Source: a virus
Direction: 5' to 3' (one strand)
Virus record (IMG/VR): IMGVR_UViG_3300031974_003999
Coordinates: 1-23,120 of that record
Length of the DNA: 23,120 nt
A model generated the notes under the pieces. The model did not search any database. It worked only from the letters and a program-made list of their open reading frames with translations, and was not told the DNA's origin. Made by a program: the position numbers and the translations under genes. Positions 3,966 to 11,520 of the stretch are shown here, piece after piece (positions within the stretch are counted from its first letter, which is position 1; the number at the start of each line of letters is the position of its first letter).

Positions 3966-4139
3966 ATGCAACATATAAGAAGACCTATACTATCGATATT
4001 AGAAAATATCAATCGTAATATGCTTGAAGAAAAGCACAATAAACCATACAATGAGATAACCATTAAAGACATGGACCAATCTGATTGGAAAAGATTTAAT
4101 GATCTATTATTATTCAGGAGGAAAAATGAGAATAGTTGA
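3966..4139 (+). CDS. Small unidentified protein (57 aa)
   Basis: ATG 3966 follows GAGGAG by six bases, the same leader style as the gene before. The product starts MQHIRRPILSILENINRNML and is a charged, probably helical protein with a KDMDQSDWKRFNDLL segment. It ends at TGA 4137-4139, 14 bp inside the next gene, whose own AGGAGG is embedded in its last codons. No homologue is recognised. The strong RBS and overlap support a real gene. Confidence 0.65.
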   Translation: MQHIRRPILSILENINRNMLEEKHNKPYNEITIKDMDQSDWKRFNDLLLFRRKNENS

Positions 4140-4449
4140 TATATTCAAAGATTGTCTCAAGATACAAAAAAAGAAAAGTAGAGACTATCAGAATACTAAA
4201 TCACGCGTTAAACAAGTGGATTATTATCCACAAGGAGTACTAAGTATCATGAATATGATACACACTAAAACAACAAGATTGTGGAGTTTGTTAGAGTCTA
4301 AAGATAATCCTAACTATGAATCATTAGAGGATAATGCTAAGGACTTAATTAACTATACTGCTTTCTTAATTAAATACATCAATTATGGTTTTGATGGTCA
4401 AGATTATAAACGTAATATCTTTAATGAGGAGATGAAAAATGATAAGTAG
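4126..4449 (+). CDS. Nmad1/DUF1599-like nucleotide-modification-associated protein
   Basis: ATG 4126 is chosen over upstream in-frame codons because AGGAGG ends 4 bases before it. The 107-residue helical protein has KSRDYQN (17-23), then GVLSIMNMIHTKTTRLWSLL (37-56), then SLEDNAKDLINYTAFLIKYI (66-85). This order (K..DY, a helix with K..RL, then E/D..DL.NY) matches the Nmad1/DUF1599 family, which was named because it clusters with phage DNA-base hypermodification genes. Its biochemical activity is not established. Here it directly precedes a MazG-like protein, a ThyA-like enzyme and a dCMP deaminase, just the company expected. Family call is from pattern memory. Confidence 0.65.
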   Translation: MRIVDIFKDCLKIQKKKSRDYQNTKSRVKQVDYYPQGVLSIMNMIHTKTTRLWSLLESKDNPNYESLEDNAKDLINYTAFLIKYINYGFDGQDYKRNIFNEEMKNDK

Positions 4450-4825
4450 AGACTTAACTGAAATGCATGAAAAATATGGTTTTACAGACCAATGTAAATG
4501 GTGGACTAAAGAACAAAAGGAACATTTCCTTAAGTTTAGAGGTGCATTTATACAAGAAGAATTAAACGAACTACAAATTGCTATATCTCAAGATAACAAG
4601 GAGGAGATAGTAGATGCTTTAATTGATATAGCTGTTGTAGCATTAGGAACGTTAGATATGTTTAATGTGGATATCGACAAAGCCTGGTCAGAAGTACACG
4701 TTGCTAACATGTCTAAGGAACCTGGCATCAAAGAAGGTAGGCCTAACCCACTAGGCTTACCTGATTTGGTTAAACCGGAATTTTGGCAAGCGCCAACACA
4801 TAAGGATAATTTAGGTGATTTATGA
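4439..4825 (+). CDS. MazG-like nucleotide pyrophosphohydrolase
   Basis: A 128-residue all-alpha protein with the metal-binding pattern of the MazG/HisE-like superfamily: QEELNEL (39-45), giving ExxE, followed after about 12 residues by EEIVDALID (55-63), giving ExxD. These acidic residues coordinate Mg2+ for hydrolysis of NTPs or dNTPs to monophosphates. The C-terminal NMSKEPGIKEGRPNPLGLPD is typical of the phage form. In a base-modification operon it would plausibly remove unwanted canonical dNTP or supply dNMP to the ThyA-like enzyme, which is inference. Its start overlaps the Nmad1-like gene, with GAGGAG upstream, and its end overlaps the ThyA-like gene. Confidence 0.85.
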   Translation: MISRDLTEMHEKYGFTDQCKWWTKEQKEHFLKFRGAFIQEELNELQIAISQDNKEEIVDALIDIAVVALGTLDMFNVDIDKAWSEVHVANMSKEPGIKEGRPNPLGLPDLVKPEFWQAPTHKDNLGDL

Positions 4826-5460
4826 ACGTACAAACTATAAGAAATTTATTTAAACAGAAATACTTAAAAGGCGAGAAAGGCTCTACAGTATCATTATATG
4901 GTGTGAGCTTTGAAGCAGATGAAGACACTATTTTCTCTGAACCTAATAAGAAATATATTGAAGCTGAGATTAAATGGTATAAGTCTAGAAGTAAAAATAT
5001 ATTCGATTTAGATTATGATCCTGTGCCTGCTATATGGCGAGAGGTTGCAGATTTAGAAGGCAATATCAATTCTAACTATGGTGCAATTATTTTTGATGAA
5101 AAAGGTTTAGAACTATCGCAATATGAATATGTTCTTGATATTTTAAGAGAAGATAAATATAGTAGAAGAGCAACTATGATTTATACCTACCCAGAAATCC
5201 ACAATGATTATAAATGGCGTGGTATGAATGATTTCATATGTACAAATGCCGTATCATATTATGTTGAAAATGATGTATTAAATGCTGTCGTACAAATGCG
5301 AAGTAATGATGCTGTATATGGTTACAAGAATGATCTTGCTTGGCAGAAAGAAGTATTGAGAATGCTAGCTAGTGATTTAGAAATGGAACCTGGCAAAATT
5401 ATATGGCAAGTACAAAACCTACATGTTTATGAAAGACATTACGACTATTTGGAAACATAG
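4822..5460 (+). CDS. ThyA-fold pyrimidine nucleotide (hydroxy)methylase, likely dCMP-type
   Basis: A 212-residue thymidylate synthase-family enzyme. It aligns by eye with E. coli ThyA: E49 (AEIKWY, for E58), IWREVADLEG (71-80), SRR (114-116, the phosphate arginines), catalytic C140, RSND (160-163), and LHVY (200-203, for the substrate His and Tyr). At the position of ThyA N177, which reads uracil, this protein has D171 (GYKNDLA against GLPFNIA). Asp there is known from T4 dCMP hydroxymethylase, so the likely reaction is dCMP to 5-hydroxymethyl-dCMP with methylene-tetrahydrofolate, but dUMP hydroxymethylation or plain methylation is not excluded. T141 replaces the usual His after the Cys. It is shorter than ThyA (264 aa), ending soon after the HxY motif. 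Genes overlap on both sides. Confidence 0.85.
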   Translation: MNVQTIRNLFKQKYLKGEKGSTVSLYGVSFEADEDTIFSEPNKKYIEAEIKWYKSRSKNIFDLDYDPVPAIWREVADLEGNINSNYGAIIFDEKGLELSQYEYVLDILREDKYSRRATMIYTYPEIHNDYKWRGMNDFICTNAVSYYVENDVLNAVVQMRSNDAVYGYKNDLAWQKEVLRMLASDLEMEPGKIIWQVQNLHVYERHYDYLET

Positions 5461-5884
5461 GTACATGGAGCTTGCGTGGCATATAGGCGCGTGGAGTAAA
5501 GACCCTTCGACTAAGGTTGGTTGTGTAGCTATAGGCGAACACGGTCAAGTACTTAGTCAAGGGTACAATGGCTTTCCAAGAAAGTTTGATGATAGTATAG
5601 ATTTGTATACGGATCAAGATACTAAATATAGATACATTGTGCATGCAGAAATGAACTGTATATACCATGCAACCTTAAATGGTATTAGTTTAAAGAACAG
5701 TACATTATTTGTCTCAGGCTTAAATGTATGTCATGAATGTGCTAAAGCTATAGTACAAACAGGAATAAAAAGAGTTATAGCTAGACCTAAAAAAGTCTAC
5801 AAAATAAAATGGCAAGAGTCATTTAAACACGCAAAAGAAATACTCAAACAAGGAGGGGTGGAATATGAAATGTTGCGTTACTAA
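5423..5884 (+). CDS. Deoxycytidylate (dCMP) deaminase
   Basis: A 153-residue zinc-dependent deaminase that converts dCMP to dUMP. It shows SKDPSTKVGCV (25-35), the nucleotide-binding GYNGFPRKFDD (48-58), the catalytic zinc motif HAE (74-76) and CHEC (103-106), which supplies the two Cys ligands. The usual Pro before the first Cys is Val here. The N-terminus fits the family whether translation begins at 5423 or at the ATG at 5429. It overlaps the ThyA-like gene by 38 bp, and the next start is embedded in its end. It would feed dUMP to thymidylate synthesis or, if it accepts hydroxymethyl-dCMP, give hydroxymethyl-dUMP; the sequence does not decide between these. Confidence 0.92.
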   Translation: MFMKDITTIWKHRYMELAWHIGAWSKDPSTKVGCVAIGEHGQVLSQGYNGFPRKFDDSIDLYTDQDTKYRYIVHAEMNCIYHATLNGISLKNSTLFVSGLNVCHECAKAIVQTGIKRVIARPKKVYKIKWQESFKHAKEILKQGGVEYEMLRY

Positions 5885-6827
5885 TCCGGTATCTAATATA
5901 CCTAAAAACAAAAAGTCACATGTTTATGGCTGGGCTTTGCAATGGGCAGAATTATTGTCTGGAAATATTGAGCATGACTGTTCTGAAAAGATAAATAACT
6001 ATGATGTTGTATATGTTGACCACGGCGTCAATTTTACAGGGTCATTAAATTTATTTGGAGGATTAACAGAAGATGTTTATAGAAAGTTTAATAATCTTAT
6101 GGGTGCTAATGAAGTTATGTCGCTCGATATTAAAATGCCTGATTATGGTGAAATGTTTAAGAAAAGATTAAATGCAAAATCTACATCAAAACATATCACT
6201 GAAAGTTGGTGTAATAAAGTAAGTGCATTTTGTCAAAGTGTAGAAACATTATGCCATAATGATATTAACTATACGGGCATAACTATAGGTGATAGCCATT
6301 CAACTGCATTTTCTAAAAAAGGTGACTTGATTAATAAAATGGATGGTAAAACACTATATGGTCAATTAGCTATACCATTTATTAGCTATTTGCACAATAT
6401 TAATCTGGCTAAACTAAATAGAATAACTATGTGTTTTGGGTCAATAGATGTTAGGCATCATATTATGCGTAAGAATACAGACGTTGTCGCACTTTATATG
6501 ACTTATATAGAAAAATGTGAGCAATTAAGAAATGCAACTGGTATAGATGTGGAAATAGCAGCACCTGTTCCTGTTGAATATGCTGATCGCAGAATACCTA
6601 AAACAGGACACTACAAAGGAAAGCCTTTTCATGGTGCAGTTAAAGAAAGGCAATTAGTGACACATGCTATCATACAGATACTAAAAAATAATTATGACAA
6701 TGTCGTGAAACCACCGATGAGTTGGTACTTTATGGATCCTGAAGAATATGCCAAAACAAAAATGGAATTAAATAGTAGTGTACACATTGCACCCATTAAC
6801 TATAGAAGAAACAACTGGGGAAATTAG
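5865..6827 (+). CDS. SGNH/GDSL-hydrolase-like protein in the modification operon (320 aa)
   Basis: The C-terminal two thirds shows SGNH-superfamily signs: ITIGDSHSTAFS (139-150), a block I motif with S144 as likely nucleophile; FGSIDVRHH (191-199), where block III normally has G-x-N-D; and SSVHIAP (304-310) with H307 as the candidate catalytic His. The Asp normally three residues before that His is Ser. The N-terminal 110 residues contain YDVVYVDHGVNFTGSLNLFG (46-65), which I do not recognise. SGNH enzymes are esterases, lipases or O-acyltransferases, so a role in adding or trimming an acyl group on a modified base is conceivable but unproven. A GGAGGGG RBS precedes ATG 5865, and the gene overlaps the deaminase and abuts the next gene, so it is firmly in the operon. 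Confidence 0.7.
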   Translation: MKCCVTNPVSNIPKNKKSHVYGWALQWAELLSGNIEHDCSEKINNYDVVYVDHGVNFTGSLNLFGGLTEDVYRKFNNLMGANEVMSLDIKMPDYGEMFKKRLNAKSTSKHITESWCNKVSAFCQSVETLCHNDINYTGITIGDSHSTAFSKKGDLINKMDGKTLYGQLAIPFISYLHNINLAKLNRITMCFGSIDVRHHIMRKNTDVVALYMTYIEKCEQLRNATGIDVEIAAPVPVEYADRRIPKTGHYKGKPFHGAVKERQLVTHAIIQILKNNYDNVVKPPMSWYFMDPEEYAKTKMELNSSVHIAPINYRRNNWGN

Positions 6828-7714
6828 TGTATAAAATTACAGATAAAGTAAAAAATAATATTGACGAATATATTACCTTTTTACATAACTATGATGCAAG
6901 GAAAGATCAATATATAGCTAACAATCCACACTTGTTTTCGCATAGACTTCATTGGGACGAACATCCGTTTTGTTATGAAATAAGAAAAAAATATGATATA
7001 TCTAGTCTTGAAAATATAGAAAAGATATTGCAAACATGTTTAGTATTTTCTTTTTCGAATGAACACTACCAAACATTTATTAACTTTATGGATTATGGTG
7101 ATGAATATTTTAAAACTACTAATAGTTTTTGTAGAAATGACTTGTATGAAATATTCTTACCTAAAGGTATGAGAATATCAGAAGGTTTAATTGAGTGCCA
7201 ATATAATTATAAAAACTTAGCAAAAAGAATCTATAAAAGGTATAAAACAAGAAAATATACCATTATGGAATTAGCTCGAATTTTAGATGAAAATTATAAA
7301 AAAAGAGGGCATGTTAGATGGGGTTATATGGCAAAAAATGCATCAAGATATTTCGCTATGGCATATCCAGATATTGTTGATCCTAATTCACAAGTTACAG
7401 GAGGTCCAGGCCATTATCGTGGTTTAGCATATATATTTGATTATCCTTATATAGCACAAGGCATAAAAATAACAGCTAGATTAGAAAATGGCAATTTGAT
7501 TCCTGACAGGGATAATTTAATAGGTGATTGGTTTTGCATGATGGGATATTTGCAAAGCGAAACCAAAGATATATTCAAAAGACATAATTGGCTCAACAAT
7601 GAAGATAAAGTTTGTTTTTTTAATAAGTACATCAATTTCAAAACAGGAAATAGAAAGCAAAATAGAACCAAAATAAATATGAGAAATATAATAGGAGATA
7701 ATTTTATACTATGA
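6827..7714 (+). CDS. Putative amino acid:DNA transferase-like hypermodification protein
   Basis: A 295-residue soluble protein with a GTG start at 6827 that shares bases with the preceding TAG. The most conserved-looking stretch is WGYMAKNASRYFAMAYPDIV (165-184) followed by SQVTGGPGHYRGLAYIFDYP (188-207) and NLIPDRDNLIGD (223-234). From memory this K-N-A-x-R-Y, Y-P-x-x-x-D, G-G-x-x-H-x-x-G-L pattern resembles the amino acid:DNA transferase domain seen in thymidine-hypermodifying phages, which attaches an amino acid to an activated 5-hydroxymethyl pyrimidine in DNA. I cannot verify this by search. The flanking SGNH-like and PLP genes overlap it and support a modification role. If the family call is wrong, treat it as unidentified. 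Confidence 0.5.
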   Translation: MYKITDKVKNNIDEYITFLHNYDARKDQYIANNPHLFSHRLHWDEHPFCYEIRKKYDISSLENIEKILQTCLVFSFSNEHYQTFINFMDYGDEYFKTTNSFCRNDLYEIFLPKGMRISEGLIECQYNYKNLAKRIYKRYKTRKYTIMELARILDENYKKRGHVRWGYMAKNASRYFAMAYPDIVDPNSQVTGGPGHYRGLAYIFDYPYIAQGIKITARLENGNLIPDRDNLIGDWFCMMGYLQSETKDIFKRHNWLNNEDKVCFFNKYINFKTGNRKQNRTKINMRNIIGDNFIL

Positions 7715-8586
7715 GCCACAATAACCACATAATTGATAATGTCAATAATGACTTAATAATGAATAACTATACATTTAGTCAAAAATATTATTTAAACCTA
7801 GTGAATAAATGGGTGGATCCATATCCAAAACCAGTCATAAAAAAACATGATGGTATACGTGTTGTACGTGAAGATTTAATCACTGGGACTAAAGTAAGAG
7901 GTGCAAGCGCTTTAGTTAATGCTATCAATCAAGATACATTAGTTTATGTGCAGCCTCGTGTAGGTTTAGCTGGAGTAAGTCTATTAGATGTAGCTGAAAA
8001 GTATAATAAGAAGGTTGTATTGTTTATGCCATCTAGTAAAAAAATATCAGACCATCAAGCATGTTGTATTGAAAGAGGAGCAAAACCTAAGTTTAAAAGA
8101 ATAGCAGCAATGCCTAATTTAAACCTAGTTGCAAAACAATGGGCTGAAGAGAATAATGCTTACTTTATTCCGTTAGGTCTTAAACATGAATTAGTTACAG
8201 CTGGTATAATAAAAACTGCAATGCAAATAAAAGCTCCTGATAAATGCTATATTGCAATATCAACGGGTGTCTTATCAAGAGCATTACAAATAGCTTGGCC
8301 TAATACAGAGTTTGTAAGTGTTGCTGTATCTAGAAATCTTAAACATGGTGAATTGGGGAGGTCTTCTGTCATATCTGACTCCTTATTATTTCAAAAGTCG
8401 GAGGACCTTTCTAATTTGCCGCCCTTCCCAACTGTGCCAACTTATGATGGTAAAGTTTGGAAATACATACCTAAAAATAGTGATGAAGACATATTGTTTT
8501 GGAATGTAGGTGCTGAGCCTGAATTAATAAATAAAAATTTATATCGGTATATTGATAGTTATAGGGATTGGCATGATACTCACTGA
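7711..8586 (+). CDS. Fold-type II PLP-dependent enzyme
   Basis: This 291-residue protein looks like a compact tryptophan synthase beta/ACC deaminase-type enzyme. VVREDLITGTKVRGASALVN (51-70) holds the probable PLP lysine K61, in the pattern REDL-x-x-G-x-K-x-R of the ACC deaminase/cysteine desulfhydrase branch. YVQPRVGLAGVSLLDVA (79-95) is the substrate-carboxylate loop, and ISTGVLSRAL (183-192) the phosphate-binding loop. NVGAEPE (265-271) is near the end. Fold-type II enzymes catalyse beta-elimination, replacement, deamination and racemisation. In this operon it would be expected to act on an amino-acid group attached to a base, by analogy with PLP enzymes in known thymidine hypermodification clusters. 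Substrate is unknown. Starts by ATGA overlap. Confidence 0.8.
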   Translation: MSHNNHIIDNVNNDLIMNNYTFSQKYYLNLVNKWVDPYPKPVIKKHDGIRVVREDLITGTKVRGASALVNAINQDTLVYVQPRVGLAGVSLLDVAEKYNKKVVLFMPSSKKISDHQACCIERGAKPKFKRIAAMPNLNLVAKQWAEENNAYFIPLGLKHELVTAGIIKTAMQIKAPDKCYIAISTGVLSRALQIAWPNTEFVSVAVSRNLKHGELGRSSVISDSLLFQKSEDLSNLPPFPTVPTYDGKVWKYIPKNSDEDILFWNVGAEPELINKNLYRYIDSYRDWHDTH

Positions 8587-9700
8587 ATATTACGAAGAAT
8601 TTTTAAGATATTACGATTTAGCAAAACAACAACAAAAGCTTTGCAATCTAGGAAATATTGCACATAAAAAATCTAATGTTGGTGATGATTTAATGGAAAA
8701 TGTTGAGCTATATGATGTTGTTGAAAGAAAATATGCAGGCTTTAGTCAGATTGTTAATGATATTTTTTATCAGAAAACAGATCAACATCCATACATAGAT
8801 AAGATAAAAAACAACACAGCATCACAACAAAGAATGCAAATTGTTGATAATTGGAATGGTGTTGAGCATGACTTGGTAACTTGGTTATATGTATTTTTAT
8901 TGCATAGATTAACAGGTTCAGCTATTAATTACGGGCAAAAACCTTCAGGCTATCACAATACTTTATTGTTTGATATGCATGTATGTAGAGATATACAAGA
9001 TATAAAAGAGCTCGTTAGAACAACAACAAGAACCTTCTATACTTCAATTGGCTACCAGTTTCCCCGTTTCCCTAAACCAACAAAAGGTTATAAAAGAGGT
9101 GGCGACTATTTCCTATGTGAATATGTTGATAAGCTTGCAGAAGATATTGCCAACTTCATAGAACAGAAAAAGAACGTTGACTTTAGAGACTTAGGGGAAT
9201 TTATGTTTAAGTGGAATAATGATCGTGGTCTAGTTAAGTATAAGTTTCAATACGCTGCTTTTTTAGCAGACATTGCTGATTGGTTTCCCAAATACATTAA
9301 TAAGCGTAGCCACTTCTATTATGGAAGCAATGCTGTTGAATGCATATCGTATTTAGCCAAAACAGAAAAACGCGTCAATAAGCTTCAATTCCTAGATTCA
9401 ATAATGGATCGTATATATGAAGATACAAAAGCATTTCCATATAATGCAGAAGATGTTTGTTGTGACTTTATAAGATGGGTAGAGAACTATATTAAACCAG
9501 GATCAGACTATGAACATTTAGATCGTGATAAAGTTTGGTCAAGTTGTCGTATTAAAGATCACCCTAAAGGACGGCAGAAACATATGCTGAAATTAAAATT
9601 GGTTGATAGTTTTAATAATATGTCAGAACACCCTAGTGATTATAAAGTTTTAGATATGAATAATATGACTGTACAAGACTACAAAAAAAGTATAAATTAA
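8573..9700 (+). CDS. Probable aGPT-Pplase3-like DNA base hypermodification protein
   Basis: ATG 8573 is preferred over an upstream TTG because AGGG precedes it and it overlaps the PLP gene as in the rest of the operon. The 375-residue protein has strongly ordered motifs: FLLHRLTGSAINYG (108-121), PSGYHNT (124-130), TSIGYQFPRFPKPTKGYKR (157-175), FKWNNDRGLVKYKFQYAAF (212-230), ADIADWFP (232-239), FYYGSNAVECISYLA (248-262) and PYNAEDVCCDFIRWVENY (289-306). From memory these match proteins annotated as alpha-glutamyl/putrescinyl thymine pyrophosphorylase clade 3, predicted to transfer amino compounds to an activated base in DNA. No P-loop is present, so it is not the hydroxymethyluridine DNA kinase. 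It is the last gene of the modification operon. Confidence 0.7.
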   Translation: MILTEYYEEFLRYYDLAKQQQKLCNLGNIAHKKSNVGDDLMENVELYDVVERKYAGFSQIVNDIFYQKTDQHPYIDKIKNNTASQQRMQIVDNWNGVEHDLVTWLYVFLLHRLTGSAINYGQKPSGYHNTLLFDMHVCRDIQDIKELVRTTTRTFYTSIGYQFPRFPKPTKGYKRGGDYFLCEYVDKLAEDIANFIEQKKNVDFRDLGEFMFKWNNDRGLVKYKFQYAAFLADIADWFPKYINKRSHFYYGSNAVECISYLAKTEKRVNKLQFLDSIMDRIYEDTKAFPYNAEDVCCDFIRWVENYIKPGSDYEHLDRDKVWSSCRIKDHPKGRQKHMLKLKLVDSFNNMSEHPSDYKVLDMNNMTVQDYKKSIN

Positions 9701-9716
9701 TTTACAAGGAGATATT

Positions 9717-9914
9717 ATGAACGGTGACTTAGAACGTATGGTTTATAACGGTACTATGGATATTGCTACCTATAATTGGTGGTTAAACTTTCTTGATGAT
9801 ATAGGGCAATTAGCCTTTTATCTATTAATACCATTAGGCGCAGTGGGTGGACTGCTTGGCGCTTATTGGATCATGCACAAATTATTAACTGAAAACGAGG
9901 ACAAAGATGGATAA
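9717..9914 (+). CDS. Small single-span membrane protein (65 aa)
   Basis: ATG 9717 follows AAGGAG at good spacing. Residues 31-53 (QLAFYLLIPLGAVGGLLGAY and onward) form one hydrophobic Gly-rich transmembrane segment, preceded by a helix with two Trp (NWWLNFLDD) and followed by an acidic tail ENEDKDG. No family is recognised. It overlaps the YqaJ gene by 8 bp. It is far from the lysis genes and on the other strand, so a holin role is not supported by position. Superinfection exclusion or membrane anchoring is possible. Confidence 0.65.
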   Translation: MNGDLERMVYNGTMDIATYNWWLNFLDDIGQLAFYLLIPLGAVGGLLGAYWIMHKLLTENEDKDG

Positions 9915-10866
9915 AGCACAAGGAAAATTTTCAAACGATAAACACGCATCATGCTCAGGACTCCCTGCGTTATTTGGTGAGTCTAGTTATGAAACTAGGA
10001 ATGAATATATGCAGTCTAGATTAGATGCTAGAGCTGGTAAAAATATTAGAAGTGAAAAAGGAGTAGCTGCTGAAATGGGTGATAGACTAGAAATGCCTAT
10101 TCTTCAATTAGCGGTTGATAAACTAGGGTTAAAGAATTTTCAACATGATATACCTTATGCTGTATCGCATGAAGAATATCCTTTAGAAGGATCAATAGAT
10201 GGTATAGCCTATGCTAAGAATATTGTTATAAAACCTGACAATGATGTTATTTATACAGAAGATGATGAGGAAGTATTATTAGATGGTAAAGGTATACTAG
10301 AAGCTAAGGCCACAGCTTTAATGCCTGAGGCTGATAGCAAACCACCTCTACATCGTGGTGTTTTGCAAGTTAAAGCATTAATGGCAATCACAGGTTATAG
10401 TTGGGCAGCAATTAGTACATTGCATAGAACCACTATGCCAAAAATATGCGTATACCGTAGAGATTTTGCTTTTGAAAAACAACTTAAAGAAGTTATACTC
10501 GACTTTGAAAGAAGGTTAAAAGAAAAAGATTATTATCCTCCAGTAACACTTAAAGATACTCAGATTATATATTCAAAACCAGATAAAGAAAGTTTATTAG
10601 ATTTAGATACAGAAGAAGTTGCATCACTGTGTGATCAAATTACAAGCTGCGAAGATCAAATCAAAAACTTAAACGAAATTATTACTAAAGGCAAAATTAG
10701 GTTACAAGAGTTGATGGGCAACTCCACTAAAGCAACCAGTAGCAAATATAATTTAGATTGGGGCACTATTACTTATAAAGACCAACCGGAAAAAGTAATA
10801 CCCGCTAAAGAAGGCTACACTATTAGGAAAAAAACAGTTAGTATACGCAAAATTAAAGATGAATGA
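9907..10866 (+). CDS. YqaJ/lambda-exonuclease family recombination nuclease
   Basis: A 319-residue PD-(D/E)XK exonuclease of the YqaJ viral recombinase type. Motifs: SCSGLPALFGESSYETRNEY (15-34), the N-terminal region typical of the family; EMGDRLEMPI (56-65); GSIDGIAY (95-102) with D98; LEAKAT (131-136) with E132 and K134; and VLQVKALMAITGY (152-164) with Q154. Such enzymes resect 5' ends of double-stranded DNA for single-strand annealing. The C-terminal region (residues 220-290) is a predicted coiled coil. An acidic insertion (VIYTEDDEEVLLDG, 114-127) sits just before the E-x-K strand. No Redbeta/Erf-type annealase is seen next to it, although the SSB-like protein is encoded elsewhere in the window. 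It partners with the HNH-type nuclease downstream. Confidence 0.85.
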   Translation: MDKAQGKFSNDKHASCSGLPALFGESSYETRNEYMQSRLDARAGKNIRSEKGVAAEMGDRLEMPILQLAVDKLGLKNFQHDIPYAVSHEEYPLEGSIDGIAYAKNIVIKPDNDVIYTEDDEEVLLDGKGILEAKATALMPEADSKPPLHRGVLQVKALMAITGYSWAAISTLHRTTMPKICVYRRDFAFEKQLKEVILDFERRLKEKDYYPPVTLKDTQIIYSKPDKESLLDLDTEEVASLCDQITSCEDQIKNLNEIITKGKIRLQELMGNSTKATSSKYNLDWGTITYKDQPEKVIPAKEGYTIRKKTVSIRKIKDE

Positions 10867-11014
10867 GCAACAATTAGATAAAGCACATGAAATTTACATT
10901 AATCTGAGAAAATCGAACGACAGGTTAAGCCCTGAAGACATTGTTTCAGTTGTGAGAATGTTAGGATATGATATTAGTGATAAAACTAGTCATACATGGT
11001 ATCACGAAGTATAA
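10859..11014 (+). CDS. Small unidentified protein (51 aa)
   Basis: ATG 10859 opens inside the last codons of the YqaJ gene and the frame closes with TAA at 11012-11014, 19 bp inside the HNH gene. The product MNEQQLDKAHEIYINLRKSN, then DRLSPEDIVSVVRMLGYDIS, looks like a two- or three-helix protein with a polar N-terminus. No family is recognised and there is no clear Shine-Dalgarno, so translation would be by coupling. It fills the only gap between two real genes. Confidence 0.6.
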   Translation: MNEQQLDKAHEIYINLRKSNDRLSPEDIVSVVRMLGYDISDKTSHTWYHEV

Positions 11015-11520
11015 AGCTCTGTAAAGATTGTGGAATACAAATTACTAAAAAAAATGCCTTTATAGACCGCGGAGAACGGATCAGAGCTAGATGTAAGCCT
11101 TGTGATTATAAATATCGTGCAAAAAGAGCAGGCAAAGACGCATATTCATATATGGATAAACTTTATGCTAAGCTTAAATATGAAGTTGTATCTGGTAGCA
11201 GAAGAACAAGCAGAGCTGATTTAACATGGAATATAAGTCCAAGCCATATTTATGCAAGGTATCACGTACAAGATGGAAGGTGTAATCTATCTGACACTAA
11301 ATTAACATGGAAAACAGGACAAGGTAAAGTTGATACAAATATCAGTATAGATAGAATAGATCCAAAAAAAGGTTATGAGCCTGATAATATCCAATTAATT
11401 ACATATCGATGCAATATTATGAAACATGATATGGATGAAGATAATTTTATAGAACTATTGAAAATGATTAATCGGACTCTTGATAACCGCAAGCGATTAA
11501 ATAAGAAGCATTCATCCTAG
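10996..11520 (+). CDS. HNH/endonuclease VII-like nuclease
   Basis: A 174-residue nuclease with an N-terminal zinc ribbon, CKDCG (9-13) and CKPCDYKYRAKRAG (33-46), followed by DGRCNLSDTKLTW and a DNA-cleavage core NISIDRIDPKKGYEPDNIQL. The S-x-D-R-I-D...K-G-Y...N-x-Q motif is typical of HNH endonucleases of phages, in which the Asp and Asn bind the metal. Two zinc-ligand pairs plus this core also fit recombination endonuclease VII-like proteins, which cut branched DNA. Its neighbour YqaJ makes a recombination or packaging role plausible. A free-standing homing endonuclease is the alternative. The 3' end runs 53 bp into the convergent lysozyme gene. Confidence 0.8.
   Translation: MVSRSIKLCKDCGIQITKKNAFIDRGERIRARCKPCDYKYRAKRAGKDAYSYMDKLYAKLKYEVVSGSRRTSRADLTWNISPSHIYARYHVQDGRCNLSDTKLTWKTGQGKVDTNISIDRIDPKKGYEPDNIQLITYRCNIMKHDMDEDNFIELLKMINRTLDNRKRLNKKHSS

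Follow-up and report, generated by a model that had tools for sequence, protein, structure and literature searches.

We describe here a block of eight plus-strand genes, g1 to g8 (Table 1), at positions 4126-9700 of IMG/VR virus record IMGVR_UViG_3300031974_003999 (23,120 bases, all of it analysed and called the window below), which very probably encodes a DNA modification based on 5-hydroxymethylcytosine (5hmC). In the more specific reading that we favor, to which we give a probability of roughly 0.55, 5hmC would replace cytosine and then receive, within DNA, an amino-acid-type decoration by a pyridoxal phosphate (PLP)-dependent route that uses no kinase. The cassette is a mobile module. It is carried by well over 100 uncultured aquatic phages, which belong to at least two unrelated types, and its presence is probably the sign of a DNA base not yet described. 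An earlier note on this DNA had proposed a hypermodified-pyrimidine operon in which one half serves the nucleotide pool and the other acts on DNA, an overall idea that was upheld; the combination of genes, said there to match no named system, was indeed absent from every isolated phage searched.

The starting base is indicated by g3. A profile built from 29 relatives matched the T4 dCMP hydroxymethylase in the PDB (1b49) with an E-value of 1.2e-97 and thymidylate synthases (TSs) with 2.7e-20, so the ThyA fold named in the earlier note stands but is refined to a dCMP hydroxymethylase. The nucleophile is Cys140, and Asp171 (nucleotides 5332-5334), at the dCMP-specifying position aligned with the cytosine-selecting residue of T4 gp42, is invariant (29 of 29). 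In the MetaGPA study, an Asn177-to-Asp change was a top discriminator of cytosine-modified phage contigs, and a front end of TS, PRA-PH and dCMP deaminase was present around 5hmC carbamoyltransferases (PMC8670742). No dUMP hydroxymethylase (TS-like with Asn) was found: g3 has Asp, and in each of four long T4-like cassette contigs (160-168 kb) the hydroxymethylase is the single TS-family gene. The base from which the cassette is predicted to start is thus cytosine, not thymine. The thymidine pathways of SP10, phiW-14 and ViI, to which the block had been likened, do not serve as a model for this front end, the pool half being T4-like and cytosine-directed through its dCMP hydroxymethylase.

The remaining pool genes were largely as first described. 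The MazG-like protein g2 matched PF01503 at 2.9e-13 and phrog_671 at 2.7e-22, and it probably strips dCTP, or something similar, out of the nucleotide pool. The dCMP deaminase g4 matched PF00383 at 3.8e-19 and phrog_174 at 3.7e-40, and a dCMP deaminase was found in six of the six long cassette contigs searched. For g1, which was found in 39 relative contigs, the Nmad1/DUF1599-like similarity exists but is weak, its E-value of 5.7e-4 against PF07659 missing the Pfam cut-off.

On the DNA-tailoring side, g7 matched phrog_7093 at 1e-38 and has an invariant Lys61 (nucleotides 7891-7893), the putative Schiff-base lysine, in agreement with its first assignment as a fold-type II PLP enzyme; PF00291 was matched below the cut-off (3.4e-5), and the weak PDB matches were cysteine synthases. 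It is also homologous to gp52, the PLP enzyme of Pseudomonas phage M6 (BLASTP 2e-7, hhalign 2e-8), with which it has the motifs REDL..K.R and YD.K..WN.G in common, and the type II PLP enzyme thus has a precedent. The M6 operon, gp51-gp58, directs a thymidine hypermodification to 5-(2-aminoethyl)-deoxyuridine (dU). In M6-type loci gp52 is usually accompanied by the radical S-adenosylmethionine (SAM) protein gp53 (16 of 17 gp52 loci). Nineteen of the M6-type loci with an amino acid:DNA transferase (ADDT; L095-L133) have the ADDT and a kinase yet neither gp52 nor gp53, suggesting that they make a simpler thymidine product. Domains like g7 also occur in two phages without any TS-family match: in Microcystis phage Mae-JY30 (L212:2408-4726), adjoining ParB/sulfiredoxin genes, and in gp1 of Erythrobacter phage R6L, whose annotation is DNA modification methylase. 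These possibly represent another PLP-based modification.

The g5 protein had been called SGNH-like, which holds for motifs in its C-terminal half but not for profiles, and which missed a segment related to T4 beta-glucosyltransferase (beta-GT) at residues ~44-97 (nucleotides 5994-6155). Compared directly by hhalign, g5 matched T4 beta-GT at 6e-5, the best of 250 control proteins reaching 0.01. Of eight long genomes of cassette phages, seven gave a PF09198 match in g5 (per-genome E-values between 9e-5 and 9e-3, below the cut-off), and one of the long contigs had a second, weaker match elsewhere. When the g5 N-terminal profile was run against the whole PDB, T4 beta-GT ranked second with an E-value of 0.5, not significant by itself. 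The supported similarity is confined to the N-terminal segment. In the C-terminal part, the SGNH-type motifs are GDSH (142-145), G-S/N-ID-x-RHH (192-199) and SVH (305-307), so that SGNH blocks I (GDS), III (GxND-like) and V (His) are all present; among 67 sequences GDSH and H307 are each conserved in 67, and GDSH, G[NS]ID.RHH and SVH are all invariant or nearly so. A view of g5 as purely SGNH was abandoned once the beta-GT signal emerged.

In the Aeromonas phage 44RR, a G5-like domain also makes up the N-terminal half of a protein of 795 residues whose C-terminal part weakly matches HMUDK_hel, and this fusion links the domain to a hydroxymethyl-base-binding fold. The protein is ORF233c of 44RR2.8t (L091:8001-10388), and some 40 records of cultured T4-like phages of Aeromonas/Stenotrophomonas contain the same fusion. 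The family offers a cultured entry point to the g5 domain; no description of hmC decoration in these phages was found in the literature searched.

The two helical proteins were compared through predicted structures. The AlphaFold2 model of g8 (mean predicted local distance difference test score, pLDDT, 81) found in BFVD, apart from close homologues of g8, the ADDT-named A0A6J5LCY1 (probability 1.00, E 0.024), a phiW-14 HMUDK_hel protein (probability 0.87) and the SP10 5-hydroxymethyldeoxyuridine (5-hmdU) DNA kinase (probability 0.85), E-values that are weak and place the evidence at the level of fold. The model also weakly resembles the OGG glycosylase 3knt. The closest homologue of g8, 59% identical, bears an ADDT-type UniProt name that was not reproduced with Pfam. 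The g8 and g6 families align by hhalign at 1.6e-4 over 132 columns, where unrelated family pairs gave 0.06-0.5. The g6 model (pLDDT 85) matched no PDB fold at E <= 0.001. Taken as predicted structures, the models support an ADDT/HMUDK-like g8 with g6 as its distant paralogue, and each protein holds strongly conserved polar residues of its own. The more specific labels given to them from the sequence found no support in family models: aGPT-Pplase3 (PF18746) was not matched in a Pfam scan of 36 g8 members and four long cassette contigs, and an ADDT-like g6 had no hidden Markov model (HMM) support, the HMUDK_hel and aGPT-Pplase3 HMMs not matching g6 either. Both proteins were also tried as relatives of M6-type ADDT or of M6 gp55, and direct hhalign comparisons were no better than background.

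It is probable that g6 adds a further tailoring step. The gene is missing precisely in two relatives 92-96% identical to the window (L014 and L015), where g5 runs directly into g7. Between the window and relative L002, synonymous divergence (dS) is 0.15 for g6, as against 0.57 for g5, 0.87 for g7 and 1.09 for g8; g3 (0.09) and g4 (0.11) are other recent genes. This pattern of presence, absence and dS fits an optional end-tailoring gene that is often gained, lost and exchanged, a status that could not be seen from the single sequence on which the earlier note was based.

Scans of IMG/VR gave at least 281 relatives of g8 and at least 587 of g7. In the 46 loci flanked on both sides by 4.5 kb or more, g5, g7 and g8 were together in all 46, g3 was present in 45 and g6 in 23, figures in which one gene per locus is present by selection, the loci having been collected via g6, g8 or g7. 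The T4-like carriers have the cassette beside gp44-gp45 in the order g3-g8-(g6)-g7-g5, and carriers with a lambda-type terminase in the order g3-g5-(g6)-g7-g8. By clamp loader, the nearest isolates to the T4-like carriers are DLP6 and Melnitz, which have a deformylase and gp45-gp44 in the same neighborhood, lack the cassette there and have no TS-family gene anywhere in their genomes. Identity to the window varies from gene to gene (61% for g8 and 35% for g6 in L029; 31% for g8 and 51% for g6 in L008), and the cassette genes therefore have separate histories. Searches with three g8 and two g6 queries found no isolate that carries either gene. Four contigs of bacterial metagenome-assembled genomes with incompatible host labels contain g8; these are probably binned phage contigs, uninformative about the host. 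Since g8 and g7 are widespread in IMG/VR yet g8 is absent from the isolate-phage records searched, there may be a DNA base that is common in nature and has not been described.

Enzymes of known pathways were looked for in the same phages. Eight long cassette contigs (117-168 kb) were searched with PF11440, the family of T4 alpha-glucosyltransferase (alpha-GT), and gave no match; nor did they contain a full-length beta-GT, PF09198 matching only the g5 segment. A 5-hmdU DNA kinase (P-loop plus HMUDK_hel, or the M6 kinase family) was found in none of the cassette contigs searched, the same search being positive in ViI and phiW-14. The ADDT HMM (PF18724) matched in 0 of 15 genomes, and no gp51-type ADDT, gp53 radical SAM protein, gp54 kinase or gp55 helical protein was detected in the cassette loci; such HMM absences are compatible with very divergent forms of these enzymes. 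The carbamoyltransferase domains PF02543 and PF16861 are absent from g1-g10 of the window, the only locus in which they were sought.

In the pathway that we propose, g3 makes hydroxymethyl-dCMP (hm-dCMP), the nucleotide pool is adjusted through g4 and g2, and the polymerase incorporates 5hmC, steps that homology supports. The beta-GT-like N-terminal part of g5 would then dock 5hmC-containing DNA and its SGNH-type part would activate the hydroxymethyl group, for example by O-acylation. The helical fold of g8 may hold the base and couple an amino acid to it, g7 could then decarboxylate or rearrange the attached amino acid, and g6, where present, might add or swap an end group. Worked out to this degree, as an aminoalkyl hypermodification of cytosine in which the g5 chimera activates 5hmC without a P-loop kinase, g8 loads, g7 reshapes and the exchangeable g6 varies the final base between closely related phages, the scheme is a tentative one, with odds somewhat short of even. 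Phages with such DNA would probably gain protection from host restriction enzymes and from other defenses that target DNA.

Several observations weigh against an amino-acid-type decoration of 5hmC by this cassette. No isolated phage was found with the cassette, and about 50,000 records of isolated phages contain no g8. The ADDT, HMUDK_hel and aGPT-Pplase3 HMMs did not match g8, which leaves the ADDT link at the fold, and g5 had no SGNH match in Pfam or, by profile search that included its C-terminal part, in the PDB. The dCMP deaminase in the operon makes the formation of hydroxymethyl-dUMP (hm-dUMP) conceivable. Free amino acids are the classical substrates of type II PLP enzymes and, by analogy, g7 might provide a donor. 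If so, g7 would make this donor (e.g., an aminoacrylate- or diaminopropionate-like product) from a free amino acid, g5 would transfer the small acyl/donor group to the 5hmC hydroxyl, and g8 and g6 would be DNA-binding base-flipping partners. We regard this as unlikely, though well worth weighing. The cysteine synthases among the PDB matches of g7 speak for it, as does the 44RR fusion of a G5-like domain to a weakly HMUDK_hel-like region in a genome without a g7 match. However, in M6-type thymidine operons the homologue of g7 has genes for ADDT and a radical SAM protein as neighbors, and the polar residues conserved separately in g8 and g6 suggest catalysis, not scaffolding.

The deaminase, encoded in the operon and found in all six long contigs searched, could also turn hm-dCMP into hm-dUMP, so that the on-DNA enzymes would act on 5hmdU as in M6, to whose PLP enzyme g7 is similar, and the final base would be a thymidine derivative. 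This is improbable, as g3 is of the gp42 type, 5-hmdU kinase, HMUDK_hel and ADDT were undetected, g5 is related to a 5hmC-specific beta-GT, and the T4-like phage 44RR, too, combines a deaminase with its hydroxymethylase, which makes the deaminase alone not diagnostic. Slightly more improbable still is a sugar decoration in which g5 is a diverged glucosyltransferase and g7 and g8 have unrelated roles. The beta-GT-like segment would suit it, and many T4-like relatives have a glycosyltransferase-like gene close by, but it occurs in only 27 of 38 T4-type loci and in 0 of 4 lambda-type loci, whereas g5, g7 and g8 are inseparable in the 46 loci; moreover, the invariant GDSH, GxIDxRHH and SVH are not beta-GT motifs and lie beyond the N-terminal segment with which the supported beta-GT match ends.

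An amino-acid-type, PLP-dependent decoration of 5hmC would have parts in common with several known systems. With the T4 5hmC system the cassette shares a gp42-type dCMP hydroxymethylase, a dCMP deaminase, a pool pyrophosphatase and, in g5, the beta-GT N-domain-related segment, but it has no alpha-GT or complete beta-GT, has SGNH-type motifs in g5, and adds the PLP enzyme with g8 and g6. M6 thymidine hypermodification resembles it in the PLP enzyme and in the predicted ADDT/HMUDK-like fold of g8; the cassette, however, starts from cytosine, not uracil, and genes of the gp51, gp53, gp54 and gp55 types were undetected in its loci. In 44RR2.8t, the N-terminal half of the ORF233c family (795 aa) is homologous to g5 and the genome has a gp42-type hydroxymethylase, but the C-terminal part is the weakly HMUDK_hel-like one, g7 has no match and a tblastn search for g8 found nothing. 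The MetaGPA 5hmC carbamoyltransferase systems have the same dCMP hydroxymethylase, PRA-PH and dCMP deaminase front end in environmental phages (PMC8670742), whereas the back end here consists of g5, g7, g8 and sometimes g6, and none of the genes in the operon has a carbamoyltransferase domain. In the CmoA/CmoX/CmoY carboxymethylcytosine system of phage DNA, an amino acid is likewise attached to a substituent at C5 of cytosine, but the handle is a carboxymethyl made in DNA by a C5-methyltransferase and an amide ligase (PMC12783734), the predicted handle in the cassette being 5hmC. Known transformations of hydroxymethyl pyrimidines are glycosylation, amination and carbamoylation (PMC12783734), and no description of a PLP-enzyme-bearing 5hmC system was found in the literature searched. 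If true, our reading would unite the T4 hydroxymethylcytosine front end with the amino-acid/PLP tailoring of thymidine phages, so far separate. The two helical protein families and the beta-GT/SGNH chimera are candidate enzymes for labeling or protecting 5hmC, and the presence or absence of g6 between near-identical phages is a natural test of one extra decoration against host defenses.

Table 1. Cassette genes, with positions in the window.
Gene	Position	Strand	Assignment
g1	4126..4449	+	small helical protein; weak DUF1599 / Nucleotide modification associated domain 1 similarity
g2	4439..4825	+	MazG-like NTP pyrophosphohydrolase; PF01503, phrog_671
g3	4822..5460	+	deoxycytidylate hydroxymethylase, T4 gp42 type; PDB profile match
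g4	5423..5884	+	dCMP deaminase; PF00383, phrog_174
g5	5865..6827	+	two-part: T4 beta-glucosyltransferase N-domain-related segment + SGNH-type motif C-terminal part
g6	6827..7714	+	optional helical protein, distant g8 paralogue
g7	7711..8586	+	fold-type II PLP enzyme, M6 gp52 homologue
g8	8573..9700	+	core helical protein, ADDT/HMUDK_hel-like predicted fold; candidate base-binding transferase

The compact, overlapping arrangement noticed at the outset was confirmed, with overlaps at seven of seven junctions (4439/4449, 4822/4825, 5423/5460, 5865/5884, 6827/6827, 7711/7714 and 8573, or 8552, /8586). The g8 start is most likely the ATG at 8573, seven codons past the TTG at 8552 given in the open reading frame (ORF) list. 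Purifying selection acts across g1-g8 (dN/dS, the ratio of nonsynonymous to synonymous divergence, 0.06-0.18 between the window and L002), and blocks of the cassette genes are kept together in well over 100 other contigs; given this low dN/dS and block conservation, g1-g8 are true genes, not chance ORFs. Promoter and terminator scans gave nothing clearly exceeding shuffled sequences. The tail genes of the window indicate a siphovirus, and its distal tail protein is nearest to those of small Pelagibacter phages (39-41% identity). Downstream of the cassette and in the same direction, a RecE-like exonuclease and an endonuclease VII-like HNH gene (9907-11520) are kept alongside in the close relatives L012-L017.

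Two further genes accompany the cassette in its relatives. A small protein resembling the uracil-DNA glycosylase superfamily (PF03167, E 2e-4, below the cut-off) is encoded just upstream of g8 in L069 (544-957) and about 30 others (cluster c9). Directly after g5, L030 (12591-13790) and 14 other T4-like relatives have a C5-cytosine-methyltransferase-like gene (cluster c18) with intact PC and ENAP motifs and an N-terminal (motif I) region that lies outside the Pfam match. It nearly always occurs with g6 (13 of 14 T4-type loci with the full core), and its product could act on 5hmC instead of methylating cytosine.

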